IMG/VR virus record: IMGVR_UViG_3300031974_000445
Coordinates: 1 to 22,677 of that record
Reading direction: 5' to 3' (one strand)
From: a virus
Length of the DNA: 22,677 nt
The position numbers and the translations under genes are program-made. Shown piece after piece: positions 6,224 to 22,677 of this stretch (its first letter is position 1; each line of letters starts with the position of its first letter). The notes under the pieces were generated by a model, which saw only the letters and a list, made by a program, of their open reading frames with translations, made no database searches and had not been told where the DNA came from.

Positions 6224-6229
6224 TCCCTA

Positions 6230-7321: not shown

Positions 7322-7407
7322 TTTACAGTCCTTCTCTAAAGGTGTTGAGTTACAGTTCTGCGGTTGTCTGCTTTGACATCTTCAACGCGAGTATCCTTGC
7401 GGGTCGC

Positions 7408-8650: not shown

Positions 8651-8912
8651 CGTTTTTAACCCTATGTGCGTGACGGATGCGTGATTCTAATAGGCCAACA
8701 ATATATCGCTGCCCTTCCATGTGACGCAGTTCCGCATCGGAAACCCCTGCGCCATTAACTTGTTCTATGGTAATGGACCTTAGATAACTCAATACCTCTT
8801 CCCCAGAAGGGGTGGCAAATAGACTAGCTATATTCAAGCTAATCTTTGAGTCCTCTGTTTTGTCCCGCTGAAATCCATCTAATCCTAGATAGACGTTATT
8901 GTTGCGGCTCAA
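8643..8912 (-). CDS. Bbp19-like small virion-module protein
   Basis: An 89-residue protein with the pattern LFATPSGEEVLSYLRS (residues 31-46) and HMEGQRYIVGLLESRI (about 64-79). This matches the Bbp19 family of Bordetella phage BPP-1 and related podoviruses, found next to the portal gene: a phage protein with 'tp.G..vL..L' followed by 'eGqR.vv..l...i'. Its function is unknown. It overlaps the portal end by 17 nt and the scaffold start by 8 nt. Confidence 0.65.
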   Translation of the reverse strand: MSRNNNVYLGLDGFQRDKTEDSKISLNIASLFATPSGEEVLSYLRSITIEQVNGAGVSDAELRHMEGQRYIVGLLESRIRHAHRVKNDE

Positions 8913-10488: not shown

Positions 10489-10700
10489 TTACTATACTCG
10501 TTGTAGTAACCCATGCCACCACCAGAGCTAGAAATCAAAGATCTTCGACCACGACCACGCCGCATCTCAGATACAGTCTGCTCAAGTGCCTCTTGCTTTG
10601 CAGTCTTTTTTTCTTCCAAAGCCTTTGCCTTCTGAGCTTCTTGCTCAGCTTTGATGCTTGGATCAATAGAAGGTGCGCGTGAACCGCCGCCTATACACAT
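10485..10700 (-). CDS. Small conserved protein between terminase and portal
   Basis: A 71-residue protein with a Gly/Cys N-terminus (MCIGGGSRAPS), a Lys/Glu/Gln-rich helix (about 18-50) and a Gly/Arg/Ser-rich end (MRRGRGRRSLISSSGGG). Proteins of this kind (MC-hydrophobic-GG, then charged helix) are frequent just upstream of podovirus portal genes but their function is unknown. It has the best ribosome-binding site of the late block, AAGGAGGT, 5 nt before the ATG, and passes ribosomes to the portal through ATGA. Confidence 0.7.
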   Translation of the reverse strand: MCIGGGSRAPSIDPSIKAEQEAQKAKALEEKKTAKQEALEQTVSEMRRGRGRRSLISSSGGGMGYYNEYSK

Positions 10701-10762
10701 GTTAACCTCCTTGGCTAAAGGTTATTCCTAAACATAGTTTGCTGCATAGCGCAACGCACAAA

Positions 10763-12301: not shown

Positions 12302-12464
12302 ACTTAATCATGCGTTCAACTATCTCCGGCCCTATGGAGGCGATGACTTTATCAGCCTCATGGTCGGTACAAAACTCTTCTGGGTGGTGACAAAGGTGTA
12401 CCTTTTTAACCACACGCCTCAGAACCTCACGTTCTTCTGGCTTCAAAGTGTGTAAGAAACTCAT
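12270..12464 (-). CDS. Small protein coupled to terminase
   Basis: A 64-residue mostly helical protein (MSFLHTLKPEEREVLRRVVK, then HLCHHPEEFCTDHEADKVIA). It has three His and two Cys near residues 24-34, but the spacing is not a clear zinc site. I do not recognise a family. It begins in an ATGA overlap with the upstream gene and ends inside the terminase start region, so it may serve partly to deliver ribosomes to the non-ATG start of TerL. Confidence 0.65.
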   Translation of the reverse strand: MSFLHTLKPEEREVLRRVVKKVHLCHHPEEFCTDHEADKVIASIGPEIVERMIKFGRDHKVDQL

Positions 12465-12712
12465 CTATGACTTGCTGCCTTTTTAGCAACATCCTTTGGT
12501 TGCTTGGCGAATTGCTTACCTTTTCGTATCGCTGCCCGCTTCGCTCTGGTAGTGCGGCGATACTCTTCGTCACTCAGGGCAGCTATGGCAGACGCAGGGA
12601 GGTAACGCTCACCAGTAGCTTCTTTGCCCTGAGTGGATGGCTTACCCGACTTAGTTCCCCACTTTTGTCGCGTCCAAGCTCTAAGCGACTTTTGTGAATC
12701 CGCGAGTGCCAT
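12461..12712 (-). CDS. Basic small protein, DUF5872-like
   Basis: An 83-residue very basic protein. The pattern SLRAWTRQKWGTKSGKPST (residues 9-27), GERYLPASAIAALSDEEY (about 34-51) and a Lys/Arg-rich tail with GKQFAKQPKDVAKKA is typical of a family of unknown function widespread in environmental phages (I recall it as DUF5872; unverified). The function is unknown; DNA or RNA binding is plausible from charge. It is followed by an ATGA coupling. Confidence 0.65.
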   Translation of the reverse strand: MALADSQKSLRAWTRQKWGTKSGKPSTQGKEATGERYLPASAIAALSDEEYRRTTRAKRAAIRKGKQFAKQPKDVAKKAASHR

Positions 12713-12739
12713 TAGTTTGTATACCCGCCGCCAGCCTTC

Positions 12740-13006
12740 TTATACAGAAGAGCTAGCCTTTGTGCTTTTCTTGCTGACCACTGACCCGCTGCGCCGCCCT
12801 TTGCCTCGCGCTTTACTTTGTTGAACAGGCTCTTTCTTAGCTTGGGCTTCGTGTAGTTCCCCGCTTCGTTGACCGCCATCTTTGACCTCCATAGGTATTA
12901 CTCGGCGTGAGTCAGGCATATAGGTTGCGCCTGACAGAGTGCGTCCGTCAGGCATTTGAATCGTTGGACCCTCGTAAGGAGTGCCGTCAGTAAACTGCCA
13001 CTTCAT
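12740..13006 (-). CDS. Hypothetical protein, MPDGRT motif, basic tail
   Basis: An 88-residue protein. Residues 1-42 look like a small beta domain (MKWQFTDGTPYEGPTIQMPD, then GRTLSGATYMPDSRRVIP). Residues 43-88 are a low-complexity Lys/Ser/Gln/Arg tail (KARGKGRRSGSVVSKKSTKA). Similar 'y.G.....mpDG....g..h' proteins occur in environmental phages without known function. The start is in an ATGA overlap with the 50-aa gene upstream. Confidence 0.6.
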   Translation of the reverse strand: MKWQFTDGTPYEGPTIQMPDGRTLSGATYMPDSRRVIPMEVKDGGQRSGELHEAQAKKEPVQQSKARGKGRRSGSVVSKKSTKASSSV

Positions 13007-13155
13007 GCTTGCTTCATCTTTGAATCAATAATCTTTTTCTGCATTGCCTTTGGCAGTGTCTTTTGTTTTGCGGTTAGCAAAGACTTAGCGGCCTTCTTGG
13101 CTTTCTTCTTACCCGCTGGTGTGTAGGCGTACTTCTTTCCCATTACATTTGGCAT
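13003..13155 (-). CDS. 50-aa lysine-rich protein
   Basis: A short gene that exactly fills the space between its neighbours. The ATG at 13155 overlaps the previous stop (TAATG) and the TGA at 13003-13005 overlaps the next ATG (ATGA). The product begins MPNVMGKKYAYTPAGKKKAK and is about one-third Lys, with no acidic residue before residue 44. 'MP.v.gK.y.Yt..G...A' openings are seen in other small phage proteins of unknown function. The tight coupling on both sides is the main evidence that it is real. Nucleic-acid binding is inference from charge. Confidence 0.7.
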   Translation of the reverse strand: MPNVMGKKYAYTPAGKKKAKKAAKSLLTAKQKTLPKAMQKKIIDSKMKQA

Positions 13156-13346
13156 TATTCTGCTCCCTGATTATTAATGGTCTTGCCAGTAAGAAGTTTA
13201 AAAATTGTTGAGTAAGGCAAGCCTTGAAGATCCTCGCCCTTTTCAGCTTTCTTGCGAATTTCAGACAATGCGCCAGCCTTCAGCTTATCTTGAATACTAT
13301 TGCTATTATTGCTGTTACTAGCTTTAATTAATGATTTTTTCTTCAT
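13155..13346 (-). CDS. Hypothetical small protein
   Basis: A 63-residue protein with a Lys/Ser/Asn-rich start (MKKKSLIKASNSNNSNS) and a helical middle (DKLKAGALSEIRKKAEKGED). The Ser-Asn repeat is encoded by a short imperfect run of AAT/AGC codons. I do not recognise a family. It is coupled at both ends by TAATG. Confidence 0.6.
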   Translation of the reverse strand: MKKKSLIKASNSNNSNSIQDKLKAGALSEIRKKAEKGEDLQGLPYSTIFKLLTGKTINNQGAE

Positions 13347-13654
13347 TACGCTTTTCCTTTCTTAGCCTTGTTTCTACGAGATATAGCAGCACCAATACGT
13401 CTTGCTTCGGCTTTGCTGCTAGCACCCCAAGCTCTAAGGCTTAGAAGTAGACGAGTTGGTTTCCCCTTTTCGTCCTTCTCCGGCCCTTTCATATTCCCCA
13501 TCCGTTGAAGAAACGATGCCCTGCGTGGGTTGTCCCCCGACCTTACTGGAGCCTTGAGTGTGCCGCCTTTGTAAGAGGCGCGACCTCTGGCGTTGAGACC
13601 ACCTTTGGGGTTCTGACCTTCTTTTCTTGTCCATGCTGGTGTCTTTGGTGCCAT
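13346..13654 (-). CDS. Basic protein, DUF6321-like
   Basis: A 102-residue basic protein with a strongly conserved-looking core: AWTRKEGQNPKGGLNARGRA (residues 7-26), SGDNPRRASFLQRMGNMKGP (about 39-58), KGKPTRLLLSLRAWGASSKA (about 63-82) and a Lys/Arg tail. This matches a small domain of unknown function common in environmental phages (I recall DUF6321; unverified). The sequence looks like a nucleic-acid or structural scaffold protein, but no function is established. It starts in TAATG with the gene upstream. Confidence 0.68.
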   Translation of the reverse strand: MAPKTPAWTRKEGQNPKGGLNARGRASYKGGTLKAPVRSGDNPRRASFLQRMGNMKGPEKDEKGKPTRLLLSLRAWGASSKAEARRIGAAISRRNKAKKGKA

Positions 13655-14490
13655 TACTTTTTACCAAGGCTTCTAAGATTGACTAACGAGGATCTTGTGC
13701 CAATAGCACCTTTACGCCCACTGCCTCTACGCCGCTTGGTTGTCAACGTACCCATATCGGCATCAACCACAACCTCTGGCTTATCCTCAATCTTAGGACG
13801 AGGGGCTGGATCAGGACTGTCATCTTTCTGTGGCTTGTCACGCACAGTTTCCAATACTGGACCCCCAGCCAATAAGTCAGGGCTGTAGTCGCCTCTGCCT
13901 GTGTATCGACCACCCTTTACATAACCTTGAATGTCACCAAACTTAGTCGCAGCACCTGTACCTTTGTCAGTAACTAACTTAGTGCCATAAGTAACTTTGC
14001 CATCCTTCATAGTAGGGGCATCAGAAGCAATGGTACTCATAATGTTAGAAGCGGCTTTCTTGCCAGCAATATTAGCAATATTTAAAGCAGCACTGCCAAC
14101 ACTAGGAATCATTACATCACCTGCTGGTAACTGACCAACCCTAGACCTAGTGGCTAGCTGTCCCATGTTGCTAACATTAAGACCGGGCCTACCAGCAACA
14201 TTAGCGGCAACTTGATCTGCGCTAAGATCCCCAACAGCACCAAAGGTGGCCTTAACATCTAATGGGCTTGGACCTCTGAACTTAGCCTTGGCAACACCAG
14301 CAGAAAAGCCAGCAGGAGTCTGGACCCTGCCAGTCCGCGCTTCTTTAGCTGGGTTAACTGGTGGCCTTGGTTTAGCCTTAAAGGGCGTAGTGTTCTTTGG
14401 CTTAGCCTTAGAAGTTACCCTCTTCTTAGGCTTGCGAGTGCGACCTCTTTCTCTGCCGCCATCTCCACCGCCGCCGCCACCTGATCCCAT
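13654..14490 (-). CDS. Low-complexity Gly/Lys/Ala/Pro-rich protein
   Basis: A 278-residue protein of no family I recognise. Residues 1-12 are a glycine run (MGSGGGGGGDGG), 13-60 are Lys/Arg/Pro-rich, 60-215 are Ala/Gly/Val-rich with 'AGDVMIPSVGSAALNIANIA', and the C-terminus is again basic (RRRGSGRKGAIGTRSS). There is no signal peptide or membrane segment. The Shine-Dalgarno sequence AGGAG lies 7 nt before the ATG. A virion-associated or DNA-binding role is possible but unproven. The end is coupled to the next gene by TAATG. Confidence 0.65.
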   Translation of the reverse strand: MGSGGGGGGDGGRERGRTRKPKKRVTSKAKPKNTTPFKAKPRPPVNPAKEARTGRVQTPAGFSAGVAKAKFRGPSPLDVKATFGAVGDLSADQVAANVAGRPGLNVSNMGQLATRSRVGQLPAGDVMIPSVGSAALNIANIAGKKAASNIMSTIASDAPTMKDGKVTYGTKLVTDKGTGAATKFGDIQGYVKGGRYTGRGDYSPDLLAGGPVLETVRDKPQKDDSPDPAPRPKIEDKPEVVVDADMGTLTTKRRRGSGRKGAIGTRSSLVNLRSLGKK

Positions 14491-14499
14491 AATTCTCTC

Positions 14500-14874
14500 C
14501 TATATCTTAATCCAGCCCAGCTTATGAGCCTCAGTCCTCAACCAGTAAGCCTCTCTATGACCAATGCCAACAAACATCCTGCGAAGCTCCTTGACCATAG
14601 ACAGAACCTTTCCGTCCAAACAAATAAAATCAACTATCCAAAGTTCGTCACCACCGCCATCAAACCACTCAGGCTCAAACCTTTTGGTAGTTAAATATTT
14701 TTTTACCGCATCATCGTCAGGGAAACCCCAACTAACAAAGCCATCATCTAAAACCAAACACTGACCTAAACTAATCGGTAACGCAACGTACAATTCGTAC
14801 TCCTTCTCACCCCACCAACTGTGATACGGACTGCGCTCTATCAAATCCTTTAACGAGCTTTTTTCGCTAATCAT
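14500..14874 (-). CDS. HlyC-like acyltransferase-fold phage protein
   Basis: A 124-residue protein from the ATG at 14874 (a TTG 30 nt upstream is possible). It has the layout of the RTX-toxin-activating acyltransferase (HlyC) group, which is GNAT-related: an N-terminal Ser-x-x-His (SPYHSWW, His18), a strand 'LPISLGQCLVLDDGFVSWGF' (about 32-51), and DELWIVDFICLDGK with Asp82 at the place of the HlyC catalytic Asp, then 'LRRMF'. In HlyC a His/Asp pair supports transfer of an acyl chain from acyl carrier protein to lysine. Phage homologues are common and uncharacterised. No RTX toxin gene is near, so the substrate is unknown. It lies between the small terminase and the basic proteins. Confidence 0.6.
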   Translation of the reverse strand: MISEKSSLKDLIERSPYHSWWGEKEYELYVALPISLGQCLVLDDGFVSWGFPDDDAVKKYLTTKRFEPEWFDGGGDELWIVDFICLDGKVLSMVKELRRMFVGIGHREAYWLRTEAHKLGWIKI

Positions 14875-14927
14875 GTGAGTGATGGACCCCGTGACTACTG
14901 GCAAAGCCAGTTTTTCAACCCCTACCC

Positions 14928-15299
14928 CTATGACAGATCTATGCTCACCTTAATTTCCCCAGCGTGTAAGTGCATAGACCGCTCTACAGGTTTGAAGCCA
15001 GCACGATCCAGTATATCCTTTGACGCTTCTAGCTGGACGTACTCAGACTTGGCACCTTTGGCTAGGTTCAGCAGCTTGCTTGCAGCCACGGTAGCATTAA
15101 GACCGAGCGTCTCAGTCACTCTTTGCATCATGTACTGCTGCACATGAGGCTGACGCAAAGCCTTACTGGCACTGACTCTACCAGATTCGCCTTCTGCGTA
15201 ACCGGCTTTGCCAGCAGCCTCACGCACGGTACATCCATCGGCTACAAGCGTATCCACCAAAGCAGTCTGTTTCTCGGTCAACTTAGATACATCAGTCAT
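14928..15299 (-). CDS. terS: Terminase small subunit (TerS)
   Basis: A 123-residue protein starting at the ATG at 15299, chosen because GAGGTT lies 6 nt upstream. A longer frame to 15347 would pass through the G tracts. It has an N-terminal helix-turn-helix (LTEKQTALVDTLVADGCTVR, then EAAGKAGYAEGESGRVSASK, residues 7-50) typical of phage small terminases that recognise the packaging site, a central oligomerisation helix (VTETLGLNATVAASKLLNLA) and an acidic C-terminus. It is the first gene of the leftward late block, directly behind the promoter at 15339-15367, and is separated from TerL by eight genes. Confidence 0.82.
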   Translation of the reverse strand: MTDVSKLTEKQTALVDTLVADGCTVREAAGKAGYAEGESGRVSASKALRQPHVQQYMMQRVTETLGLNATVAASKLLNLAKGAKSEYVQLEASKDILDRAGFKPVERSMHLHAGEIKVSIDLS

Positions 15300-15314
15300 A
15301 CTCAACCTCACTTG

Positions 15315-15337
15315 CCCCCCCCTTGTGTTCCCCCCCC
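15315..15337 (-). other. Two G8 tracts in the small-terminase leader
   Basis: The minus strand carries GGGGGGGG at 15337-15330, seven nt (AACACAA), then GGGGGGGG at 15322-15315, ending 16 nt before the terS ATG. Each G8 run can supply two G-triplets, so an intramolecular G-quadruplex in the mRNA leader is possible. The predicted start of transcription falls in the upstream tract. Runs like this are also prone to slippage and to sequencing error. Confidence 0.6.
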
Positions 15338-15338
15338 A

Positions 15339-15367
15339 TTTACACACTCACTCTGACAGCTTGTCAA
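15339..15367 (-). promoter_or_regulatory. Sigma70-like late promoter for the leftward block
   Basis: On the minus strand TTGACA (15367-15362, perfect -35) is followed after exactly 17 nt by TGTAAA (15344-15339, 4 of 6 to TATAAT). The start site would be near 15332, about 33 nt before the terS ATG. One arm of the CACTCACTCTG inverted repeat fills the promoter spacer, suggesting an operator. Confidence 0.65.
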
Positions 15368-15448: not shown

Positions 15449-15720
15449 TTACCCAGTTCTCCTAGGCATCTGTCGTGGCCCTACCCTCGCCTAACTGCCC
15501 TATCCGAGCCACAGTCGCCCATCCAAGTAAAGGAGCAGGCCGCACCCTGCAGACGAGGTGCATAGCTGGTTCCCTTCCTTCTTCCGTGGCTGTCCTTTAC
15601 TTGGACGCTTCAGCCGCCCTGCAGGGCGTCCTCGCGGCAAGCTGTTCGTCAGTGGCTTCGGGGGCAGCATAAGGCGAGGGCAGTTCCTCGCCAGTTACCA
15701 AGGAGAACTAAAATGGGTAA
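15449..15720 (+). ncRNA. Structured leader RNA that masks a ribosome-binding site
   Basis: A GC-rich, gene-free stretch with nested complementary arms. Outer: TTACCC+AGTTCTCCT (15449-15463) with AGGAGAACT (15701-15709) and GGGTAA (15715-15720), which covers the Shine-Dalgarno sequence and start of the next gene. Next: CCCTCGCCT (15484-15492) with AGGCGAGGG (15672-15680). Next: CCGAGCCAC (15504-15512) with GTGGC-T-TCGG (15652-15661). Inside are two arms: TCCAAGTAAAGGA (15522-15534) with TCCTTTACTTGGA (15593-15605), extended by CAG/CTG and CC/GG and capped by GCACC/GGTGC; and GCTT-CA-GCCGC (15607-15617) with GCGGCAAGC (15634-15642). A local hairpin GGCGAGG/CCTCGCC (15673-15692) competes with the second helix. 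I recognise no known RNA family. I see no clear plus-strand promoter ahead of it. Confidence 0.6.
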
Positions 15721-16117
15721 GCAATCAAATGTAAATGGATTCGTCAAAGACACCAATTCTATCCACACCCTCACGGATAGAGTAACAAGACAATCAGTTC
15801 AATATCATGTTGGCAAGTTCATCGATCATCTCAAGTGGTCAATTGATCTCAAAGAAAAGAAAAAGATGGAGATCAACGAACTCGCTCAAGAGATGATCGC
15901 CAACAAAGATGGCACCATCGAGGGCAACGCACACTACGATGCAGATCAACTGGTTCAGATGGAGAACAACTGGAATTGGAACAACGATCAGCAAGCAGTG
16001 GCTGAGGAAATGCTTACATACTTCAAGCAAGCATCACAGCAGTTGTTCCCAGAAGAACATGCCAAGTCACAGCAGAACGCAACTCAAGCAGAAGCGTTCT
16101 TCACAAAGTCAGCGTAA
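15713..16117 (+). CDS. Hypothetical protein, first rightward gene
   Basis: A 134-residue hydrophilic helical protein (MGKQSNVNGFVKDTNSIHTL) with a Lys/Glu-rich helix (about 43-65), an Asn/Trp stretch (MENNWNWNNDQQ about 82-93) and a Gln-rich end. No domain is recognised. AAGGAGAACTAAA precedes the ATG. It stands alone between the structured leader and a strong terminator, so it is a separately controlled single-gene unit, which suggests an early or host-takeover role by inference. The codon use looks like that of the other early genes. Confidence 0.75.
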   Translation: MGKQSNVNGFVKDTNSIHTLTDRVTRQSVQYHVGKFIDHLKWSIDLKEKKKMEINELAQEMIANKDGTIEGNAHYDADQLVQMENNWNWNNDQQAVAEEMLTYFKQASQQLFPEEHAKSQQNATQAEAFFTKSA

Positions 16118-16129
16118 AGGGCTGAAACA

Positions 16130-16160
16130 GCCTCGCAGCTTCGGCTGCGGGGCTTTTTTT
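16130..16160 (+). terminator. Intrinsic terminator
   Basis: GCCTCGCAGC-TTCG-GCTGCGGGGC is a 10-bp stem (one T-G wobble) with a UUCG loop followed by seven T (16154-16160). It ends the transcript of the 134-aa gene 12 nt after the stop codon. A weaker overlapping hairpin GGCTG-AAA-CAGCC (16120-16132) lies just upstream and would compete. Confidence 0.92.
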
Positions 16161-16202
16161 ATGCTCATCATCAACGTCAACACCGCAAGGTCATCACATA
16201 TA

Positions 16203-16219
16203 AGTTGCAGCCTGCAACT
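16203..16219. promoter_or_regulatory. Iteron-like palindrome on the promoter -35
   Basis: AGTTGCAG-C-CTGCAACT, with 8-bp perfect arms. Its core GTTGC-N5-GCAAC has the same bases and spacing as the iterons at 19750-19806 inside the initiator gene. It covers the -35 box, so the replication initiator may also control this promoter (inference). Confidence 0.6.
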
Positions 16220-16233
16220 AACTATTATATACT
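16205..16233 (+). promoter_or_regulatory. Sigma70-like early promoter
   Basis: TTGCAG (-35, 16205-16210), 17-nt spacer, TATACT (-10, 16228-16233, 5 of 6). It lies directly after the terminator and before the 38-aa ORF and the DUF932 gene. A palindrome covers the -35 (16203-16219) and a second one starts in the -10 (16230-16247), so the promoter is very likely repressed or autoregulated. Confidence 0.75.
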
Positions 16234-16247
16234 GCAAGTATGCAGTA
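16230..16247. promoter_or_regulatory. Operator TACTGCA-N4-TGCAGTA, copy 1
   Basis: TACTGCAAGTATGCAGTA is a perfect 7-4-7 palindrome overlapping the -10 and start site. The same 7-bp arms and 4-bp spacing recur at 20539-20556, and a degenerate version is at 18608-18625. All three are inside or across promoters. Confidence 0.7.
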
Positions 16248-16263
16248 GGAAATGAGGATAAAA

Positions 16264-16380
16264 ATGCGGATCAAATCTTACAGGAATTTTTATTTCGTGC
16301 CTCGTTACTTTCGCACGGATCGCGGGTTCACCATCAAATGGCTGGGCCTAATCGTAACCCATCGCAACTCAAACTTTTAG
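16264..16380 (+). CDS. 38-aa basic aromatic protein
   Basis: A short frame (MRIKSYRNFYFVPRYFRTDR and 18 more residues) with GAGG 5 nt before the ATG. It is the first frame behind the promoter at 16205-16233 and its TAG stop is embedded in the ribosome-binding site of the DUF932 gene. It is rich in Arg, Phe and Tyr with one Trp. No family is recognised; it could be a leader peptide or a small host-directed phage protein. Confidence 0.6.
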   Translation: MRIKSYRNFYFVPRYFRTDRGFTIKWLGLIVTHRNSNF

Positions 16381-16390
16381 GAGAACCAAA

Positions 16391-17263
16391 ATGGATGGAG
16401 TAACTGTAATTGGAAACAACACACTAGCTTTAGATAACTGGTCGTTTCCTGTTGAAACTGTCAACCTGATTGCAAGCAAGGATGGTGACTGCAACCTGTA
16501 TGATGTGCCTCAGTCTATGGCTAGGGCGATCATGCGTACTGATACCAATGAAGTGCTTGGCGTTCATGGCTCCAAATACAAAGCCATCAAGCATGATGAT
16601 GTTGTCAACTCTGTGATGGATGCTGTTAAAAACTCAGCAGTATCTAATGACTACGACACAAACATTGAAGTGTTCGACAACGGCGCAAAGCTGCGCGGCA
16701 CTGTTGACTTCAATGATCTGGTCATCGAACCAACAGTCGGTGATTATGTCAGGTTCCGTGTTCAATTCTTCAACTCATATGACAGTAGCTGGGCGTTTCA
16801 ACAATCAGCTTTTGGTTTGCGTTTGTGGTGCCTCAATGGCTGCACACACTCAGATACTGTAGCTAATACATGGGCCAAGCATACAACCAACGTCAATGTC
16901 GAGGGCAGTTCAAAGAAAATACAAGCTGGCCTTGATGCGTTCATGACTACCAAAGATATCTACAAATCATGGATGACTACGCATGTTGACGATGAGATGG
17001 CTGAGACATTCTTCAAGCACAGCATGTGTCGTGTACCCAACAAGACAAGCACATTCAAATGGAATGAACGCATGTTGGATAATCTGATGTCATGTTGGTA
17101 TGCAGACAAGAAGGCTCTCGGCTCTAACAAGTGGGCGTTATACAACGCTTGCACATATTGGGCATCACATACTCAAGAGTCTAAGTCACCAGCTAATACT
17201 CAACGGCTGCGTGAGAACCAACTTGCTAAAGTGTTCAAGCAATCTAACTGGCACAGAGTTTAA
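16391..17263 (+). CDS. DUF932 family protein
   Basis: A 290-residue protein with the features of the DUF932 (phage/plasmid-like TIGR03299) group: VLGVHGSKYKAIKHDDVVNS (residues about 55-74), GAKLRGTVDF (about 98-107), a central beta segment, FGLRLWCLNGCTHSD (about 140-154) and HTTNVNVEGSSKKI (about 163-176). The family is found in many phages and plasmids, often near replication or recombination genes, and has no proven function. The site TAGGAGAACCAAAATGG gives the start. The 12 nt GGAGAACCAAAA at 16380-16391 are exactly complementary to the hairpin loop region at 22570-22581. Confidence 0.82.
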   Translation: MDGVTVIGNNTLALDNWSFPVETVNLIASKDGDCNLYDVPQSMARAIMRTDTNEVLGVHGSKYKAIKHDDVVNSVMDAVKNSAVSNDYDTNIEVFDNGAKLRGTVDFNDLVIEPTVGDYVRFRVQFFNSYDSSWAFQQSAFGLRLWCLNGCTHSDTVANTWAKHTTNVNVEGSSKKIQAGLDAFMTTKDIYKSWMTTHVDDEMAETFFKHSMCRVPNKTSTFKWNERMLDNLMSCWYADKKALGSNKWALYNACTYWASHTQESKSPANTQRLRENQLAKVFKQSNWHRV

Positions 17264-17269
17264 TCGCTC

Positions 17270-17316
17270 GACGGTCCCCGCCTCGGCCCCGCATATGGCA
17301 AGAGGCGGGGGCCGTC
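17270..17316 (+). other. Strong GC-rich intercistronic hairpin
   Basis: A 15-bp stem (G plus ACGGTCCCCGCCTC, with GAGGCGGGGGCCGT plus C; one wobble) around a 17-nt loop, starting 7 nt after the DUF932 stop. There is no T-run after it, so it is not a standard terminator. The loop sequence CGGCCCCGC (17284-17292) can instead pair with GCGGGGGCCG (17305-17314), giving two mutually exclusive folds. It may be an RNA-stability or processing element. Confidence 0.65.
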
Positions 17317-17341
17317 TCGCTAATCAAACAAGGAGAATCAA

Positions 17342-17551
17342 ATGAATATATCATTCATCAATCAAGTCAACGAGTGCAAACGTATACTTGACTTGCTTAC
17401 TGAACGTGCATCTGACGAAAATTCACAGTTTCATTACTCAATACAATCAGCCAAGTGGAACATTGATCGTGTTGCTGCAACCTATCAAGAAGTTCTTGAT
17501 CGTGATGCAAACGAAGATCAATCCTTTCGTCCAATCAAGGAGGTAAAATAA
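17342..17551 (+). CDS. Hypothetical small helical protein
   Basis: A 69-residue protein (MNISFINQVNECKRILDLLT), mostly amphipathic helix, acidic. It starts after AAGGAGAATCAA and ends in a 1-nt TAATG overlap with the next gene, whose ribosome-binding site AAGGAGGT lies inside its last codons. No family is recognised. Confidence 0.65.
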   Translation: MNISFINQVNECKRILDLLTERASDENSQFHYSIQSAKWNIDRVAATYQEVLDRDANEDQSFRPIKEVK

Positions 17552-17757
17552 TGTCACTAATGCAACAACGTCACTATGAGTTTCTTGCAGATAATGTTGC
17601 TCCACTATTGGGTTGGCCTACACAAATAGACAGGATGGCTGACGAGTTAGCTGCAACAAATCCCAAGTTCAACAGAGATAAGTTTATCCAACGTGCAGTT
17701 GCTGCGTGGGAGAAAGCAAATCCAATGGAGCCACTTGATGACCATATTCCATACTGA
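17551..17757 (+). CDS. Small phage protein with SSB-tail-like C-terminus
   Basis: A 68-residue protein with the pattern HYEFLADNVAPLL (residues 8-20) and MADELAATNPKFNRDKFIQR (about 29-48). This is common in short phage early proteins of unknown function ('ya..l...nprFdr.rF'). Its last six residues are DDHIPY, close to the DDDIPF tip of bacterial SSB. The start follows AAGGAGGT. It overlaps the next gene by 20 nt. Confidence 0.7.
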   Translation: MSLMQQRHYEFLADNVAPLLGWPTQIDRMADELAATNPKFNRDKFIQRAVAAWEKANPMEPLDDHIPY

Positions 17758-18043
17758 GTTAGAGGCTAAGAAAGTCTTTGAAGAATATTATGAGTGTCGC
17801 TTTTGCGAAATGCAGTTCGATGAGGAGCAATACATTAACTCAATGATCGAAGGCACATGTCCTAATTGCAAAGGCGATGATATCAATCACATGAAAACTT
17901 ACACTGTGTATCAGCATGTGTTTGCTACAGATGAGGATGATGCTGTTGAAACATCATTTCAAATTGGTAATTGGCAATCTATGCAGGGCAAGATTGATAT
18001 CACACGTCACCTATGGGAAGCCAAAAGGAGAACCAAATCATGA
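17738..18043 (+). CDS. Small zinc-ribbon protein
   Basis: A 101-residue protein from the ATG at 17738 (GGAG 8 nt upstream). Cys20-x2-Cys23 (YYECRFCEMQF) and Cys41-x2-Cys44 (GTCPNCKGDD) form a clear zinc ribbon of the rubredoxin-like kind, and the rest is acidic (ATDEDDAVETS). It has no enzymatic motif. It may bind nucleic acid or a host protein. The stop is in an ATGA overlap with the winged-helix gene. Confidence 0.7.
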   Translation: MTIFHTELEAKKVFEEYYECRFCEMQFDEEQYINSMIEGTCPNCKGDDINHMKTYTVYQHVFATDEDDAVETSFQIGNWQSMQGKIDITRHLWEAKRRTKS

Positions 18044-18363
18044 ATGATCTATTCGATGTTGAAGTGCATAAAATGCACCACAAAAATGCTGCTGATACTG
18101 AGGTTGAAGCAGCACAAAAGATTGCACCTAAAGCACCTATCTTACGCATCAAAGTGTTGCAGTATCTACAAAGCAAAGGCACTGTTGGGGCTACAGGTGA
18201 ACAAGTTGCAGAAGGTATTGATGAATGGCTTTACTCTGTGAAGCCACGCATTACTGAGCTTGTTCGTGCCGATCGTGTCATTGATAGCGGTCGGCGTATC
18301 AAAAACTCACGCAACCGCAATGAAATTGTATGGGTTGCTTTAGCTAATGAAGAGGTAAGCTAA
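18040..18363 (+). CDS. Winged-helix DNA-binding protein
   Basis: A 107-residue protein. Residues about 34-100 form a winged helix: ILRIKVLQYLQSKG (helix 1), TGEQVAEGIDE (helix 2), YSVKPRITELVRADRVIDSG (recognition helix and strand), then a wing RIKNSRNRNEIVWVAL. The 'VkpRitELvr.drvi.sg.r' pattern is common in phage regulatory proteins. It starts at the ATG at 18040 after AAGGAGAACCAAATC, overlapping the previous stop (ATGA), and ends in TAATG. It is probably a transcription regulator of the early block (inference). Confidence 0.72.
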   Translation: MNDLFDVEVHKMHHKNAADTEVEAAQKIAPKAPILRIKVLQYLQSKGTVGATGEQVAEGIDEWLYSVKPRITELVRADRVIDSGRRIKNSRNRNEIVWVALANEEVS

Positions 18364-18599
18364 TGGCTGGTGCATATCATAGATCCAAGACAGGCTATCT
18401 TAATCCACAGATGGCAAGCTATGCAGAATCTGAAAAATTTTACAACAGAATGAAAGCTGAACAACGAGAAGCAATGATCAAAGCATCTGAGTCTATACCA
18501 GATGATGCTTTTGCTGATGATGTTATACCTAATGATGAGTATGGCAGCATCAAACGTCATGAAACAATTGTTGAAACAACTCTTTGGCACTATGACTGA
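18363..18599 (+). CDS. Hypothetical acidic small protein
   Basis: A 78-residue protein (MAGAYHRSKTGYLNPQMASY) with a charged helix (ESEKFYNRMKAEQREAMIKA) and an acidic loop (DDAFADDVIPNDEYG). No family is recognised. The start is in TAATG with GAGGT upstream. Its stop TGA is followed at once by the TTGACA of the next promoter. Confidence 0.62.
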   Translation: MAGAYHRSKTGYLNPQMASYAESEKFYNRMKAEQREAMIKASESIPDDAFADDVIPNDEYGSIKRHETIVETTLWHYD

Positions 18600-18628
18600 T
18601 TGACAAATACTGCGTAGTTGCAGATGAT
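18600..18628 (+). promoter_or_regulatory. Promoter with internal operator (copy 3)
   Basis: TTGACA (18600-18605), 17-nt spacer, GATGAT (18623-18628, 4 of 6). The spacer is filled by TACTGCGTAGTTGCAGAT (18608-18625), a degenerate copy of the TACTGC-N6-GCAGTA operator. The predicted start of transcription (about 18635) falls on the A of the ATG of the HTH gene, so the mRNA would be leaderless. Confidence 0.65.
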
Positions 18629-18634
18629 GTGTTC

Positions 18635-18838
18635 ATGCAAAGTTACTTGGACATACTCAAAGAAAAATCTGCAACCGCAAACGTCCCACTAAAGAAGGCG
18701 TTTGTACATGCTGGAGTGCGCGACTCTACATACTACCGTGCAATACATGGTCGCAATCTCCGGCATGAAACAGCTAACCGTGTGGAACAGTCGATTGAAA
18801 AACTTTCAACACTTCAAAGAAGAGACAGTAGTTCCTGA
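18635..18838 (+). CDS. Small HTH protein, repressor candidate
   Basis: A 67-residue protein from the ATG at 18635 (an upstream GTG at 18629 is possible). The sequence DILKEKSATANVPLKKAFVH, AGVRDSTYYRAIHGR and LRHETANRVEQSIEKL forms a helix-turn-helix in which STYYRAI is the likely recognition helix. This is the layout of small phage Cro/C2-like DNA-binding proteins. No Shine-Dalgarno sequence is visible, and the promoter geometry predicts a leaderless transcript, as for lambda cI. An operator copy lies in its own promoter, so it is the best candidate for the protein that reads the three operators. Confidence 0.7.
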   Translation: MQSYLDILKEKSATANVPLKKAFVHAGVRDSTYYRAIHGRNLRHETANRVEQSIEKLSTLQRRDSSS

Positions 18839-19067
18839 CACATATCAAGAGATCATATTGAGCTTGGTTCAACATAGACACAAGCTCGGTATGTCTCAGG
18901 AAGAGTTAGCCCATCAAATCGGCTGTGCAAAATCACTTGTTCACAAATGGGAGCAGTATAAACGTGTGCCATCTGGCTTCATGTTTAGCTGTTGGTTAGA
19001 AGCACTTGGCCTCACGATCAAAGTCCACAAGAAAAAAACTAACGCTAGGAAGAAAGCAGTATTGTGA
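18765..19067 (+). CDS. Xre-family HTH protein
   Basis: The C-terminal two-thirds is a clear Xre-type HTH: IILSLVQHRHKLGMSQEELA, HQIGCAKSLVHKWEQYKRVP, then a hydrophobic helix FMFSCWLEALGLTI and a Lys-rich tail. The start is uncertain. The ATG at 18765 lies inside the previous gene in another frame and has no good Shine-Dalgarno sequence; the frame stays open to 18702. Either this gene overlaps the HTH gene by 74 nt or more, or a +1 shift near 18800-18838 joins the two HTH domains in one protein. A second regulator is likely, as in repressor pairs. Confidence 0.65.
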   Translation: MKQLTVWNSRLKNFQHFKEETVVPDTYQEIILSLVQHRHKLGMSQEELAHQIGCAKSLVHKWEQYKRVPSGFMFSCWLEALGLTIKVHKKKTNARKKAVL

Positions 19068-19338
19068 TGCTTGCAATACACACACCAATTATTTTGTGTG
19101 CATTTTAGCTACAATAGAACCCGCAACATATCACACGATATGTTTAGATTGTTACGATGGTGAATCATGGCAAACAAAAATCGCAACAAAGGCAACTACC
19201 ACGAAAGGTGGTTCGTCAACTGGCTCCAAGAAAAAGGGTTCAAAGCGAAAAGGCAACCTCTCAGCGGCAGCTTGGGAGGAGAATATAGCGGGGACATCAT
19301 CTGGGAAATCGGACAAGAGCGACTGGTGGTGGAAGTAA
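19006..19338 (+). CDS. Doubtful Cys4 zinc-finger frame
   Basis: The frame fills the 99-nt gap between the Xre gene and the nuclease gene and there encodes YCDACNTHTNYF followed by ICLDCYDGE, a two-CxxC zinc knuckle of the kind seen in small phage proteins. It has no ATG or GTG start: only a TTG at 19006 inside the Xre gene. Its second half overlaps the nuclease gene and is low-complexity Lys/Ser/Gly, probably not meaningful. It may be a non-ATG gene, a +1-shifted extension of the Xre protein after the A7 run at 19032-19038, or a relic. Confidence 0.3.
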   Translation: MASRSKSTRKKLTLGRKQYCDACNTHTNYFVCILATIEPATYHTICLDCYDGESWQTKIATKATTTKGGSSTGSKKKGSKRKGNLSAAAWEENIAGTSSGKSDKSDWWWK

Positions 19339-19529
19339 AGTACCGCGACAAGTCAAACTTTCCCAATCCATTTACAGTTGTAAGAGATGTTTTGTTTTAC
19401 AAGCGCAAGACAGGCTCACCGAAAACGCTTGTAATATTTGATGGCGATGTATTTGCTGAAAGGATTGCGCCATTACTAAAGGAGAACCAACATGTCGTTT
19501 CTACTGATGGCGAGGGCAATCAAAGCTGA
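19167..19529 (+). CDS. Hjc-like Holliday junction resolvase / PDDEXK nuclease
   Basis: A 120-residue protein. NKGNYHERWFVNWLQEKGF (residues 7-25) with Glu13, RQPLSGSLGGEYSGDI (29-44) with Asp43, and VVEVKYRDKSN (54-64) with Glu56 and Lys58 are the signature of the Hjc/VRR-like PD-(D/E)xK fold. 'SG..g....DI' followed by 'EvK' is typical of phage and archaeal Holliday junction resolvases. It would cut branched recombination or replication intermediates, as T7 endonuclease I does. It is next to the replication and annealing genes. GGTGA precedes the ATG. It overlaps the initiator gene by 38 nt. Confidence 0.75.
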   Translation: MANKNRNKGNYHERWFVNWLQEKGFKAKRQPLSGSLGGEYSGDIIWEIGQERLVVEVKYRDKSNFPNPFTVVRDVLFYKRKTGSPKTLVIFDGDVFAERIAPLLKENQHVVSTDGEGNQS

Positions 19530-20154
19530 CATCCCTGATTGCTATGCCAAGTGGCTTATGGTCGTACTTGCTGACCATGCCGATGAACATACACACGAAT
19601 GTTTCCCTAGTTTGTCACGTCTATCTGACCGCACACAAATGAGTGTGGCTACAATTACTAGGAAACTCAATTGGTTAGAGGATCACGGGCTGCTTACAAG
19701 AGTGCGTGGCTCATACCGCAAGTCTACCATCTATACAATATTTCCTAGTGTTGCACAGAGCAACGAGGTTGTTGCAGACAGCAAGTTACCTGTTGCAGAC
19801 AGCAACACTAACCTATCAATTAACCCTCCAGTAAACAAAAAGATATTGGTGCCAGAAGATTGGTGTCCAAGTGAGGAGTTGTGCAAGTCGATCAATGAAA
19901 AGCTAGAAGAGGATCAGGACCATGAGTATGAAGCAGATCAGTTCCGTTGTTACCATGCCAGCAAAGGCAGCAGATTCGTCAGCATTGACCTCGCTTACAG
20001 AGGCTGGTGTCGCCGCGCCTTTAAGTGGAGAGCAGATGGATCAAGGTCGGGATCGTTTACTAACAATAAACAGTCCATCAGAGGCAGACAAAAGGCTAGT
20101 CACTTCGCTGGAATCTTATCTGGGCTTTCCAGTGCGGCAGATAAGCAGAACTAG
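19492..20154 (+). CDS. Replication initiator, lambda O-like
   Basis: A 220-residue protein with strong start AAGGAGAACCAACATG. Residues 1-85 are a phage replication-protein winged helix (HTH_36-like): YAKWLMVVLADHADEHTHEC, FPSLSRLSDRTQMSVATITR, KLNWLEDHGLLTRVRG. Residues about 86-107 form a linker encoded by three direct repeats. Residues 140-185 (ADQFRCYHASKGSRFVSIDL, AYRGWCRRAFKW) are the C-terminal part common in phage initiators. The linker repeats are iterons, so the gene likely contains its own origin, as lambda O does. It overlaps the next gene by 119 nt. Confidence 0.75.
   Translation: MSFLLMARAIKADIPDCYAKWLMVVLADHADEHTHECFPSLSRLSDRTQMSVATITRKLNWLEDHGLLTRVRGSYRKSTIYTIFPSVAQSNEVVADSKLPVADSNTNLSINPPVNKKILVPEDWCPSEELCKSINEKLEEDQDHEYEADQFRCYHASKGSRFVSIDLAYRGWCRRAFKWRADGSRSGSFTNNKQSIRGRQKASHFAGILSGLSSAADKQN
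19750..19812. repeat. Three 21-bp iterons: candidate replication origin
   Basis: Three copies spaced exactly 21 bp start at 19750, 19771 and 19792: GTTGC-ACAGA-GCAAC, GTTGC-AGACA-GCAAG, GTTGC-AGACA-GCAAC. Each is an imperfect palindrome GTTGC-N5-GCAAC. An AT-richer segment follows (about 19806-19855). The position between the two domains of an O-like initiator gene is that of the lambda origin. Confidence 0.7.
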
Positions 20155-20557
20155 GTTCCTTGAAAGCAGCCTTGAGATCATTGTCAAAGGCTATGAGATA
20201 ACAACAAAGGACATAGAAGGTTTGAATAGGGCCATAATCGCTGCTCAGAAGGCACTGACGCCATTTACAGCACAGCAGCTAGAGGAACAGCTAACCGCTG
20301 TTGCAGCCCTTGTAGTGAAGCCTTCAAACGAATCTTCTCAAGATCATGCAATGCGGATTAAAGCTACAGCTATCAAGCTGCAAGATTATCCAGCAGATAT
20401 TGTGAAGTATGCGCTTGAGCGTGTGGTCGAGTCGTCAACATTCTGGCCCTCATACGCAGAAATATACAAGCACATCGAGTGGCGTGTGCGTAACAGGAAC
20501 CTGTTACTGGATGCGCTTTTAAAGAAACGTGTTGCACTTACTGCACAGTTGCAGTAG
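20036..20557 (+). CDS. Putative helicase loader / primosomal protein
   Basis: A 173-residue protein from the ATG at 20036, chosen because GGAG lies 6 nt upstream; the frame is open further to 19922. The C-terminal half has 'HAMRIKATAIKLQDYPADIV', 'KYALERVVESSTFWPSYAEI' and 'YKHIEWRVRNRN'. The 'yP.d.v..al......fWPs.aEi' pattern is found in phage proteins downstream of initiator genes that are thought to act with DnaB-type helicases. The O-then-P gene order supports this. No ATPase motif is present, so it is not DnaC-like. Confidence 0.6.
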   Translation: MDQGRDRLLTINSPSEADKRLVTSLESYLGFPVRQISRTRFLESSLEIIVKGYEITTKDIEGLNRAIIAAQKALTPFTAQQLEEQLTAVAALVVKPSNESSQDHAMRIKATAIKLQDYPADIVKYALERVVESSTFWPSYAEIYKHIEWRVRNRNLLLDALLKKRVALTAQLQ

Positions 20558-20560
20558 TAT
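20532..20560 (+). promoter_or_regulatory. Promoter with operator copy 2, before the exonuclease gene
   Basis: TTGCAC (20532-20537), 17-nt spacer, TAGTAT (20555-20560). The spacer and first two bases of the -10 are covered by TACTGCACAGTTGCAGTA (20539-20556), a perfect TACTGCA-N4-TGCAGTA palindrome. Both boxes are weak, but the geometry is the same as at 18600-18628. It would drive the exonuclease-annealing-SSB group. Confidence 0.6.
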
Positions 20561-20580
20561 CAATACAAAGGAGAACCAAC

Positions 20581-21393
20581 ATGAACAGACTAGGATTTCT
20601 AGGCGGCTCAGATATGCGCCGCATAATGAATGGTGATTGGACATCACTGTGGGAAGAAAAGACAGGCAAGACAGAGCCTGATGATCTATCCAATGTGCTG
20701 CCTGTGCAGCTTGGAGTATTTACAGAACAGTTCAATATCAATTGGTTTGCTGACCAGCATCGTTGCAATGTTAGAAAGCAACAGCATTGCGTTGAAATAA
20801 ATTGGGAAGGTGTGCCGCTCAAAGGAACTGTAGATGGATACATCTGGGACAACAGCGGATCTGAAAATACTTTCACTGATGACATCATTGAGTGCAAGCA
20901 CACATACGATGCCAACAACATGCAGCAATGTTTGCAGATGTATATGCCACAGATACAGTTTTACATGTGGTTACATCAAGCCAAGGGCTGTTATCTATCT
21001 GTAATCTTTGGCAATCGTAGATGGGAATCTGTCTATGTTTCAATTGATTGGGATTACATTCACAAAATGCAAGTCCACATCAAAGAATTTTGGAGGCTGG
21101 TTCGTGATGACACCCGCCCTTTTGCTGATGATGAGATACCACCTGTATCCATAGACAAGATCAAAGTAGATGGCATGACACGCAGAGATGCGTCATCTGA
21201 CAATGAGTTTATTAGCAGATGCCATGACTACATTGAGCAAGAACAAAACGCCAAGCTATTTGAATCAGCCAAGGCTGACCTCAAAGCTATGGTCGGAGAT
21301 GATGAGCGAGAAGTTTACTGTGACCTTCTCACCATCAAACGCGATAAGCGCGGATCACTTCGTGTCACAGTAAAGGAGAACCAGAATGTCTAA
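20581..21393 (+). CDS. YqaJ-like viral recombinase exonuclease
   Basis: A 270-residue protein of the lambda-exonuclease/YqaJ PD-(D/E)xK fold. LGFLGGSDMRRIM (residues 4-16), LGVFTEQFNINWF with Glu49 (44-56), LKGTVDGYIWD with Asp85 (80-90), IIECKHT with Glu104-x-Lys106 (102-108) and QIQFYMWL with Gln124/Gln126 (124-131) are the active-site motifs. It degrades one strand of double-stranded DNA ends to expose ssDNA for the annealing protein next door. It starts after AAGGAGAACCAAC and is driven by the operator-bearing promoter at 20532-20560. Confidence 0.88.
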   Translation: MNRLGFLGGSDMRRIMNGDWTSLWEEKTGKTEPDDLSNVLPVQLGVFTEQFNINWFADQHRCNVRKQQHCVEINWEGVPLKGTVDGYIWDNSGSENTFTDDIIECKHTYDANNMQQCLQMYMPQIQFYMWLHQAKGCYLSVIFGNRRWESVYVSIDWDYIHKMQVHIKEFWRLVRDDTRPFADDEIPPVSIDKIKVDGMTRRDASSDNEFISRCHDYIEQEQNAKLFESAKADLKAMVGDDEREVYCDLLTIKRDKRGSLRVTVKENQNV

Positions 21394-21847
21394 AGACAAT
21401 CTAAAACTATGGAACAAGGTATCAAAATCTGATCCCAAGTTCCTCAAGAATGTATCGTTTGGATCACGCTCATTTACAGCTATTGATCCTCAGTACCAAG
21501 TGAAGTCAGCTACAGAAGAGTTTGGCCCAATTGGTCACGGTTGGGGATGGTCAAATACAACTCGCTTTGTTGATGTAAGCAATGGTGACACTGCTGTTAT
21601 TGCTGACGTTATGATATGGACAGGCACTAAAGAAAACTGCTTTGGCCCATTCAGTGGATGCCGCAAGTTCTTTGACGCTAAGAAAAGCAGGATGTCAGAG
21701 GATGCACCTAAGATGGCTATTACAGATGGCCTAACAAAAGCTATGTCACATCTTGGGTTCAATGCAGATGTGTTTCTTGGTGAATATGATGGCAACAAGT
21801 ACACCGCTGATACAGGTGGTGATAAGAGCGGTGGAGGTGAATGGTAA
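21386..21847 (+). CDS. Single-strand annealing protein (Rad52/Erf-like)
   Basis: A 153-residue protein. SFTAIDPQYQVKSATEEFGP (residues 29-48), GHGWGWSNTTRF (about 51-62), CFGPFSGCRKF (about 84-94), then APKMAITDGLTKAMSHLGF and NADVFLGEYDGNKY (about 107-140). The conserved ending 'ALTkAls.lGf.adVflG.yDdnkY' is that of short phage annealing proteins of the Rad52/Erf superfamily. Its C-terminus is Gly-rich and short. It works with the adjacent exonuclease in end-dependent recombination. It starts after AAGGAGAACCAGA and overlaps the exonuclease gene by 8 nt. Confidence 0.75.
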   Translation: MSKDNLKLWNKVSKSDPKFLKNVSFGSRSFTAIDPQYQVKSATEEFGPIGHGWGWSNTTRFVDVSNGDTAVIADVMIWTGTKENCFGPFSGCRKFFDAKKSRMSEDAPKMAITDGLTKAMSHLGFNADVFLGEYDGNKYTADTGGDKSGGGEW

Positions 21848-22164
21848 TGTTCCACGTGAAACAGCTACAAACCATTGAGGATGAACTCAAAAGGATCAAC
21901 AACAATTTGGAGAAGCTGGTTATGCTGGCTTCCCCACCACCAGCCAAACCAAAGAAACTGATTGAGACATCAAACAAATATCCACGCAAGTTTCTAACTA
22001 CAATCAAGGGTAGGTATAGAACTGTAGAAGAGATTGGCAAGTATCTAAACTTGTCTACTCAAACAGTTACAACCTACATCAAGTTAGCTAGGGCTGACGG
22101 ATACATTATCAATCGCAAACATGGTGGCTTGTACAAGCTACAGAAGGGACAGATCAATGACTGA
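21847..22164 (+). CDS. HTH protein beginning MFHVKQ
   Basis: A 105-residue protein. The ATG at 21847 is preferred over 21841 because GGAGGT lies 8 nt upstream and the start forms TAATG with the previous stop. Residues 7-25 are a coiled-coil helix (IEDELKRINNNLEKL); residues about 40-105 form an HTH (FLTTIKGRYRTVEEIGKYLN, LSTQTVTTYIKLARADGYII). A DNA-binding regulator or partition-like adaptor is possible. The first codons contain the parS-type site. Confidence 0.7.
   Translation: MFHVKQLQTIEDELKRINNNLEKLVMLASPPPAKPKKLIETSNKYPRKFLTTIKGRYRTVEEIGKYLNLSTQTVTTYIKLARADGYIINRKHGGLYKLQKGQIND
21848..21863. promoter_or_regulatory. Consensus parS (ParB-binding) site
   Basis: TGTTCCACGTGAAACA fits the bacterial chromosomal parS consensus TGTTNCACGTGAAACA at every base. 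A 15-base fixed match is expected about 2 in 100,000 times in a window this size. It lies in the first codons of the 105-aa HTH gene. No parA or parB gene is in the window, so a host ParB is the likely partner if the site is functional. Confidence 0.75.
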
Positions 22165-22555
22165 ATATGACAACACTAACTCCGGCATAGCTGGTAAGCC
22201 TTGGCCCGAACAGAACTTTATCTTGCAGGGCAAGCTAAACATCATGGGTGAGGATGGTCACGTTGCTATCATTACGGCTCAAACCAAAGCAGGAGAAAAG
22301 CGTCTTGAGGTATACCAAAAGGTAGGTGTGCTGTTTGAAAACAAAGACAAGACAGATGATGACAACAAACCAGATTACTCTGGCCCTCTTGATGGCATAC
22401 ATCAGGATTGGCGTATTGCTGGATGGCGCGGTGAGAAAGACGGACGCAAGTATCTATCACTCAAGGTGTCAGAGATGCAGCCAAAGGATGAGGAATCAAA
22501 GCCAGAGCCACAAGAAACATCTACACAAGAGCTAGATGATGATATACCATTCTAA
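22157..22555 (+). CDS. SSB-like protein with DDDIPF tail
   Basis: A 132-residue protein from the ATG at 22157 (AGGGA upstream; 8-nt overlap with the previous gene). The body has alternating strands (NFILQGKLNIMGEDGHVAII, LEVYQKVGVLFENKDK) and IAGWRGEKDGRKYLSLKVSE, which resembles the DUF736-type small beta domain. The end is an acidic tail, QELDDDIPF, identical in its last six residues to Escherichia coli SSB, the peptide bound by many host repair proteins. A phage ssDNA-binding protein is the best reading; the OB fold is not proven. It is the last gene of the exonuclease-annealing group. Confidence 0.65.
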   Translation: MTEYDNTNSGIAGKPWPEQNFILQGKLNIMGEDGHVAIITAQTKAGEKRLEVYQKVGVLFENKDKTDDDNKPDYSGPLDGIHQDWRIAGWRGEKDGRKYLSLKVSEMQPKDEESKPEPQETSTQELDDDIPF

Positions 22556-22559
22556 AAAA

Positions 22560-22592
22560 CGTGGTGCGGTTTTGGTTCTCCGCTAATCCACG
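22560..22592 (+). ncRNA. Hairpin presenting an anti-ribosome-binding-site loop (sRNA candidate)
   Basis: CGTGG-T-GCGG, loop TTTTGGTTCT, CCGC-TAAT-CCACG starts 5 nt after the SSB-like stop. Loop plus stem edge, TTTTGGTTCTCC (22570-22581), is the exact complement of GGAGAACCAAAA at 16380-16391; 10 nt pair with the sites of the initiator and exonuclease genes. It is followed by a terminator, the layout of a 3'-UTR-derived small RNA. Confidence 0.5.
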
Positions 22593-22625
22593 GCGAGTGA
22601 GTGTCCCCCGATGCTCACTCGTTTT
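22593..22625 (+). terminator. Terminator at the end of the early block
   Basis: CGAGTGAG (22594-22601), 12-nt loop with CCCCC, CTCACTCG (22614-22621), then TTTT (22622-22625). The 8-bp stem is extended by a G-T wobble. The T-run is short, so it is moderate in strength. The stem shares GAGTGAGTG with the late-promoter inverted repeat. Confidence 0.6.
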
Positions 22626-22677
22626 ACGTTGGGACAGCCAGCAGCCGCATCCGATTACACAAACGCTCTGCCCGATT

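Follow-up and report, generated by a model that had tools for sequence, protein, structure and literature searches.

At the 3' end of its replication and recombination block, the phage genome analyzed here, from a family of uncultured marine phages, carries a hairpin whose loop is complementary to a ribosome-binding site (RBS) word that recurs at several genes of that block, and we consider it likely (probability of about 0.75) that the hairpin marks an operon-end antisense RNA through which the phage represses the translation of its own recombination and replication genes. This reading is drawn from sequence, with expression, processing, and the sign of the effect inferred; the observations beneath it are the anatomy of the element, its conservation, the joint change of loop and RBS, the joint change of paired stem positions, the confinement of the word to upstream genes, and the sparing of the SSB-like gene. 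The genome, hereafter the window, is a whole linear IMG/VR virus record of 22,677 bases.

Anatomy of the element and its complementarity to early start sites

The minus strand of the window carries structural genes (215-15,347), and the plus strand carries a replication/recombination block (15,713-22,555), which we label early by inference from its gene content. The block includes a DUF932 gene (16391); a gene with a phrog_1123 match (18040); a replication-initiation-like gene (19492) that matches both HTH_36 and replication initiation PHROGs; a YqaJ/RecE-like exonuclease gene (20581); an annealing-type gene (21386), whose relatives are annotated as single-strand annealing protein; a small HTH gene (21841); and an SSB-like gene (22157-22555, plus strand). 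The last of these, which matches a PHROG single strand DNA binding protein (E 2e-5) and has an RBS of its own without the shared word, is the last gene upstream of the hairpin.

The antisense hairpin (22560-22592, plus strand) sits directly 3' of the SSB-like gene, ~15 nt past the stop, and is delineated by its fold, by compensatory stem changes in relatives, and by variable stems around the word. In the predicted fold, an outer stem CGTGG/CCACG (22560-22564/22588-22592) and an inner stem GCGG/CCGC (22566-22569/22580-22583) enclose a 10-nt loop, UUUUGGUUCU (22570-22579). The anti-RBS word, TTTTGGTTCTCC (22570-22581, plus strand), fills this loop and places its final CC within the inner stem; it is defined by its complementarity to the shared early RBS and by its conservation and co-change in relatives. 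The preliminary description of a hairpin with an antisense word right after the last early gene is thus correct, with the word found at these positions as a perfect match. A second hairpin follows directly (22593-22625, plus strand), with a 13-bp stem (22593-22605/22610-22622), a CCCC loop, and then TTTT, and is the likely terminator and 3' end. The earlier claim of a terminator at this place holds for the strong stem; the T run is just TTTT, however, and the hairpin is absent from the sites returned by a terminator scan. Among relatives, at least five T stand among the next eight bases in 57 of 75 distinct hairpins, and no T run follows the hairpins of the L004 and L113 types. The segment 22550-22640 folds with a minimum free energy (MFE) of -33.5 kcal/mol (z -3.46), a value equaled by none of 200 shuffles. 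A scan of the window found no sigma-70-like promoter near the hairpin, and Rfam covariance models gave 0 matches to either strand of 22400-22677 at E up to 5.

Two further features of this region were noted. Read on the minus strand, 22554-22592 presents the antisense hairpin followed by TTTTTT, a possible terminator for late transcripts that converge on it; most relatives do not retain this run. In a longer read-through transcript (22560-22660), the antisense loop region is paired in the MFE fold with bases past the second hairpin, as is also found in L002 and L082/L083, and read-through might thereby mask the loop.

The word TTTTGGTTCTCC is complementary to the RBSs of seven upstream genes, over 12, 10, 10, 10, 9, 7, and 6 nt. 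The longest run is at the DUF932 gene, where GGAGAACCAAAA (16380-16391) confirms the exact 12-nt complement that had been claimed. The 10-nt runs are those of the 18040 gene, with the same 10-mer in GGAGAACCAAAT (18027-18038), and of the replication-initiation-like and exonuclease genes, both of which have GGAGAACCAACA (19481-19492 and 20570-20581); the annealing-type gene has GGAGAACCAGAA (21375-21386; 9 nt). Shorter runs occur at the 15713 gene, where GGAGAACTAAAA (15702-15713) has one mismatch and a run of 7 nt, and at the 17342 gene, where GGAGAATCAAAT (17332-17343) has two mismatches and a run of 6 nt. All of these sites are on the plus strand. An earlier statement that winged-helix, initiator, exonuclease, and annealing genes were matched over 8-10 nt is upheld in its lengths (10, 10, and 9 nt) and needs amending in its genes, as the winged-helix and the initiator are a single gene, 19492. 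Likewise, the suggestion that one RNA could turn down the whole early set is supported as an interpretation, but the word is present at only 7 of the 12 early starts examined, being absent at 17551, 18363, 19167, 21841, and the SSB-like start at 22157.

When 22556-22625 was cofolded with each of the seven starts that bear the word, the energies were -5.3 to -12.2 kcal/mol, whereas 17 of 19 late starts were weaker than -5.3 kcal/mol. The two late exceptions, the minus-strand starts at 14490 (-11.0 kcal/mol) and 12712 (-7.1 kcal/mol), may be extra targets or chance. Among the five early starts without the word, 21841 reached -7.3 kcal/mol and the others ranged from 0 to -1.2 kcal/mol.

How rare such complementarity is depends on the question asked of the window. 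Among 1000 first-order Markov versions of the window, counting the plus strand only, one contained the exact 12-mer and 16 contained the 10-mer. A whole-genome 8-mer/10-mer scan, which also picks up the RBSs' own antisense, turned up a 10-mer able to pair with four or more start regions, on either strand, in 33 of 200 random versions; the 10-mer match alone is therefore not rare enough, and the complementarity seen in the window without relatives is no more than suggestive. When the 3' flank of every ORF was scanned, the flank at 22555 was a clear outlier, with 4 of 18 upstream start windows matching over at least 8 nt, the runner-up on that strand matching a single start window. It is the comparison with relatives, across 262 IMG/VR loci, that makes the evidence strong.

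Conservation of the element in relatives

These 262 loci, the window among them (L001), came from four IMG/VR scans with the annealing and exonuclease proteins, and some share one contig (for example, L002 and L078). For the pairing, independent-pair, and word-count tests, 140 were kept; those left out had no SSB hit, a missing SSB stop, a flank shorter than 60 nt, or an identical flank and exonuclease site. Of the 140 non-identical loci, 101 have an anti-RBS word no more than ~60 nt from the SSB stop and 39 lack one, the figure of 101 being slightly generous because a few pattern words were added after the words of outlying clades had been seen. In the first set of loci, the loop word was present in 55 of 68 distinct SSB 3' flanks and absent from 13. 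Start windows belonging to the word-bearing flanks shared 8.0-8.9 nt with their own flank, compared with 4.7 nt for shuffled flanks, whereas those belonging to flanks without the word shared 3.3-4.7 nt, compared with 3.9-4.6 nt after shuffling.

The same signal is present in start windows picked without reference to any motif. Across 321 such windows from four genes, the mean complement to the 3' flank was 7.10 nt, versus 4.49 nt to an SSB-internal stretch, and it reached at least 7 nt in 60% and 3.1% of the windows, respectively. Some starts are misplaced by the start finder (for example, that of the DUF932 gene in L095), so the pairing signal is lowered by this error and not raised. Moreover, loci with the element have longer words in common among their start regions (8.02 nt, 83 loci) than loci without it (5.47 nt, 31 loci; p 1.8e-4). 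One outcome named in advance as refuting the element was that relatives would retain the sites but not the loop, and mostly the opposite was seen, the loop being kept and differing along with the RBS word. The exceptions are L164, which has GGAGAACCAA sites but no complementary 3' flank, and L010/L015, which have one GGAGAACTAC site with the loop absent.

A separate observation concerns the clade of L009, L013, L014, L017, L018, L020, and L026, in which a terminator without an anti-RBS word stands directly 3' of the SSB stop. The starts of this clade also lack a uniform GGAGAAC word, of which L026 retains one.

Joint change of loop and ribosome-binding sites

Across the relatives, the loop and the RBS word differ together. 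The loop TTGGTTCTCC goes with the RBS word GGAGAACCAA, GATTAGTTCTCC with GGAGAACTAA/TAC, and GGTGGTTCTCC with GGAGAACCAC/CAA. Outside the core, an ATCCTCC loop accompanies GGAGGAT sites (L030, L069, and L070), TTACTTCCTC accompanies GAGGAAGTAA sites (L231), CATTTCCTC accompanies GAGGAAATG sites (L182), and CACTCCTC accompanies GAGGAGTG sites (L257 and L258), while in L234 and L235 the loop sequence CCTTCTTCTCC matches GGAGAAGAA and AGAAGAAGGA in several registers. Two RBS words one base apart, GGAGAACAA and GGAGGACAA, are found in L263 together with two hairpin loops, TTGTTCTCC and TTGTCCTCC, that differ at the matching base; the second loop lies within the terminator-like hairpin of the SSB 3' flank.

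When the loops were swapped among classes, the pairing of 18 loop cores with their own sites exceeded that in all 20,000 permutations, a test that does not correct for descent. On ~38 pairs of loci with non-overlapping paths on the tree, own pairing was greater than swapped pairing in 26 and less in 12, with a mean gain of 1.31 nt and a median one-sided Wilcoxon p of 0.0023; a sign test alone on independent pairs (25 versus 14, p 0.11) was not significant. Three control stretches, two internal to SSB and one from the terminator region, showed no own-over-swapped signal on tree-independent pairs. Further, a C/T state test on the tree found loop and sites in agreement in 34 of 35 loci, the remainder of the 68 loci having been dropped for lack of a loop match or of motif sites, for a loop base other than C or T, or for a tie. 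We do not count this agreement as strong, because it involves only three changes on the tree.

Structural support and specificity for upstream genes

The stem enclosing the word changes in a compensatory manner. In five close relatives, three of the seven stem pairs are altered on both sides with all pairs kept, and the anti-RBS word is unchanged. Among 77 distinct word-bearing flanks, 72 form a helix of at least 4 bp around the word, using 56 different arm pairs, and in 56 of the 77 flanks the word has less pairing than the sequence around it. A helix score of at least 10 is reached by 35% of word-bearing flanks, compared with 8% when flanks are shuffled. In several clades (the L021-L065 type), the word stands beside the stem and not in a clear loop.

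In 23 long loci, the complement of the word occurs 77 times upstream on the plus strand, 74 of them before a start codon, and 0 times on the opposite strand; downstream, it occurs once on each strand. Pairing over at least 7 nt is found at 88 of 100 exonuclease starts, 50 of 62 annealing starts, 26 of 34 HTH36 starts, and 23 of 36 DUF932 starts, compared with 13 of 100 SSB starts. By this measure of predicted pairing, the SSB start is spared.

Alternative explanations

A free sRNA and action from the mRNA end are indistinguishable by sequence. If the 3' end of the mRNA looped back within its own molecule to pair with a single RBS at any one time, so that translation was limited or RNase III was given a double strand, the conserved pairing and position would be equally expected, and the lack of a sigma-70-like promoter near the hairpin would be in keeping with it, as would the precedent of icaR in Staphylococcus aureus (PMC3868564). 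Yet a single loop per mRNA would be unable to cover seven sites together, and seven sites keep the word; moreover, L263 carries two loops for two words. We regard such action in cis as possible though doubtful. That the element is merely a terminator, of plus- or minus-strand transcripts, with complementarity that is accidental or comes from pyrimidine-rich terminator sequence, might be argued from the TTTTTT that follows the window's first hairpin on the minus strand and from the late minus-strand genes that converge on the hairpin in several relatives. We find this very improbable: most relatives lack the T run, the stems vary while the word tracks the RBS, swapped pairing is worse than own pairing, and SSB is spared. 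A plain terminator or generic pyrimidine tract is largely refuted by the swap test and the within-operon controls.

The occurrence of the same word at many places in one block, together with orientation-independent reading, would also suit a double-stranded DNA site for a phage regulator, the downstream copy being one more, inverted. The upstream copies, however, lie before start codons in 74 of 77 cases and there take in the Shine-Dalgarno core; the opposite strand has no copy. The downstream copy sits inside a co-varying stem, and the L234/L235 match extends over several registers. Placement of the word before starts, strand bias, and the co-varying stem argue against the DNA-binding site, and we give it next to no weight. 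As regards the sign of the effect, sequence data reveal pairing and not its outcome, and pairing might activate early mRNAs or protect them, for instance if it shields ends or competes against another pairing. This we consider improbable, as the pairing spans the Shine-Dalgarno core, in many cases extending as far as the start codon; pairing over that core normally blocks 30S binding.

Relation to known regulators and cultured phages

Anti-Shine-Dalgarno sRNAs of the cuckoo RNA type in Alphaproteobacteria have hairpin loops with anti-Shine-Dalgarno sequence and act on many mRNAs; they are host-encoded, with generic CCUCC-type loops of the CCUCCUCC type. Unlike these, the phage element is phage-encoded and tuned to a phage-specific word, and its loop in the window, UUUUGGUUCUCC, is not of the CCUCCUCC type, which sets it outside that group. 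OppZ and CarZ of Vibrio cholerae are autoregulatory sRNAs derived from 3' UTRs (PMC7398697). They resemble the proposed phage RNA in that an operon-end RNA pairs with the translation start of its own mRNA, giving negative feedback without a protein regulator (PMC7398697). Typical of such sRNAs are liberation by RNase E, binding to Hfq, and repression of the parental operon. The phage element shares with them its position at the operon 3' end directly past the last stop, as well as its complementarity to, and co-change with, translation starts of the parental operon, in the absence of binding data. OppZ pairs at the oppB start, and oppBCDF was the sole transcript under its regulation (PMC7398697); the phage loop, in contrast, matches several separate RBSs through a shared word that co-changes across a phage lineage.

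In the icaR mRNA of S. aureus, an anti-Shine-Dalgarno motif in the 3' UTR pairs with the mRNA's own Shine-Dalgarno region and lowers translation (PMC3868564). Cleavage of the resulting duplex by RNase III is a further mark of this type. The 3' flank of the phage operon likewise bears an anti-Shine-Dalgarno word that complements RBSs of the same operon, any action in cis being inferred. The icaR case involves one gene, one site, and a motif 260 nt past the stop (PMC3868564), whereas the phage arrangement involves an operon, many sites, and a compact hairpin ~15 nt past the stop. Thus, both a trans form (OppZ/CarZ) and a cis form (icaR) exist in bacteria. Among phages, c4 of P1 and P7 is an antisense RNA whose loops are complementary to the region of a phage RBS (PMC12197685). 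It differs in controlling ant in immunity, and it is not known to have an operon-end origin or a shared word across multiple genes. No description of an element like the present one was found in the open literature searched.

Whole-region blastn against phage records gave no match. Protein matches to cultured relatives were limited to three records for the exonuclease, all below 60% identity, and three for the DUF932 protein, with none for SSB; the best cultured TerL match was Pelagibacter phage Hodr, at 62.7%. No such element was found in the start sites, SSB flank, and ORF-flank scan of Hodr, nor in an ORF-flank scan of MEP301, and a scan of genome contigs returned two weak relatives (22% and 27% identity). 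Thus, blastn and the exonuclease, DUF932, SSB, and TerL protein matches identified no close cultured relative.

Two pelagiphages, Lederberg (L268, MT647605, 26325-26410) and HTVC035P (L267, MW273923, 7611-7718), have a hairpin with a long stem and a pyrimidine loop after an exonuclease-annealing-small-gene block. The Lederberg loop complements its own starts over 13, 9, and 9 nt, ranking second of 21,976 windows, and that of HTVC035P complements five of its own starts (9, 9, 9, 8, and 8 nt), ranking 19th of 23,564. Because these sequences are A/T-rich and of low complexity, we treat them only as a lead to a possible cultured example.

Proposed mechanism and implications

In the mechanism that we propose, the 3' end of the early mRNA would bear the antisense element, whose loop would base-pair with the RBS word common to several genes of the same operon (the DUF932 gene, the replication initiator, the exonuclease, the annealing gene, and small genes) and block ribosome loading. 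Most simply, the element would be a stable 60-75-nt 3'-end fragment. Because it is copied last, it would appear only after the full early operon has been transcribed, and it would therefore act as delayed negative feedback, the early recombination and replication proteins falling as infection proceeds; SSB, which is required through replication, would escape repression. That the RNA is made and processed, that it acts in trans, that it represses and does not activate, and that the operon is early are inferred. Since the loop and the sites change together, the phage is probably lowering the level of the early proteins that it encodes.

Polymerase switches or repressor proteins are the usual explanation for early shut-off in small lytic phages. 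We lean, with some reserve, toward a broader view in which a marine phage lineage shares a self-addressed post-transcriptional regulon: a ~10-nt word over the Shine-Dalgarno sequence would serve as an address on the genes to be silenced, and the last RNA of the operon would carry its complement and act as a timer. Joint change of the loop and every site allows a clade to switch such an address to another word, and the L263 genome may be running two addresses with two loops.

On this reading, one short RNA from the end of the early transcript would exert feedback on a number of early genes by way of a ribosome-binding word common to them. The loop-site pairs constitute a natural compensatory-mutation series, in which both sides have changed and pairing has been kept across dozens of genomes. 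They also offer a route to such regulators in uncultured phages without RNA data, by way of 3' flanks that are complementary to several starts of their own genome.
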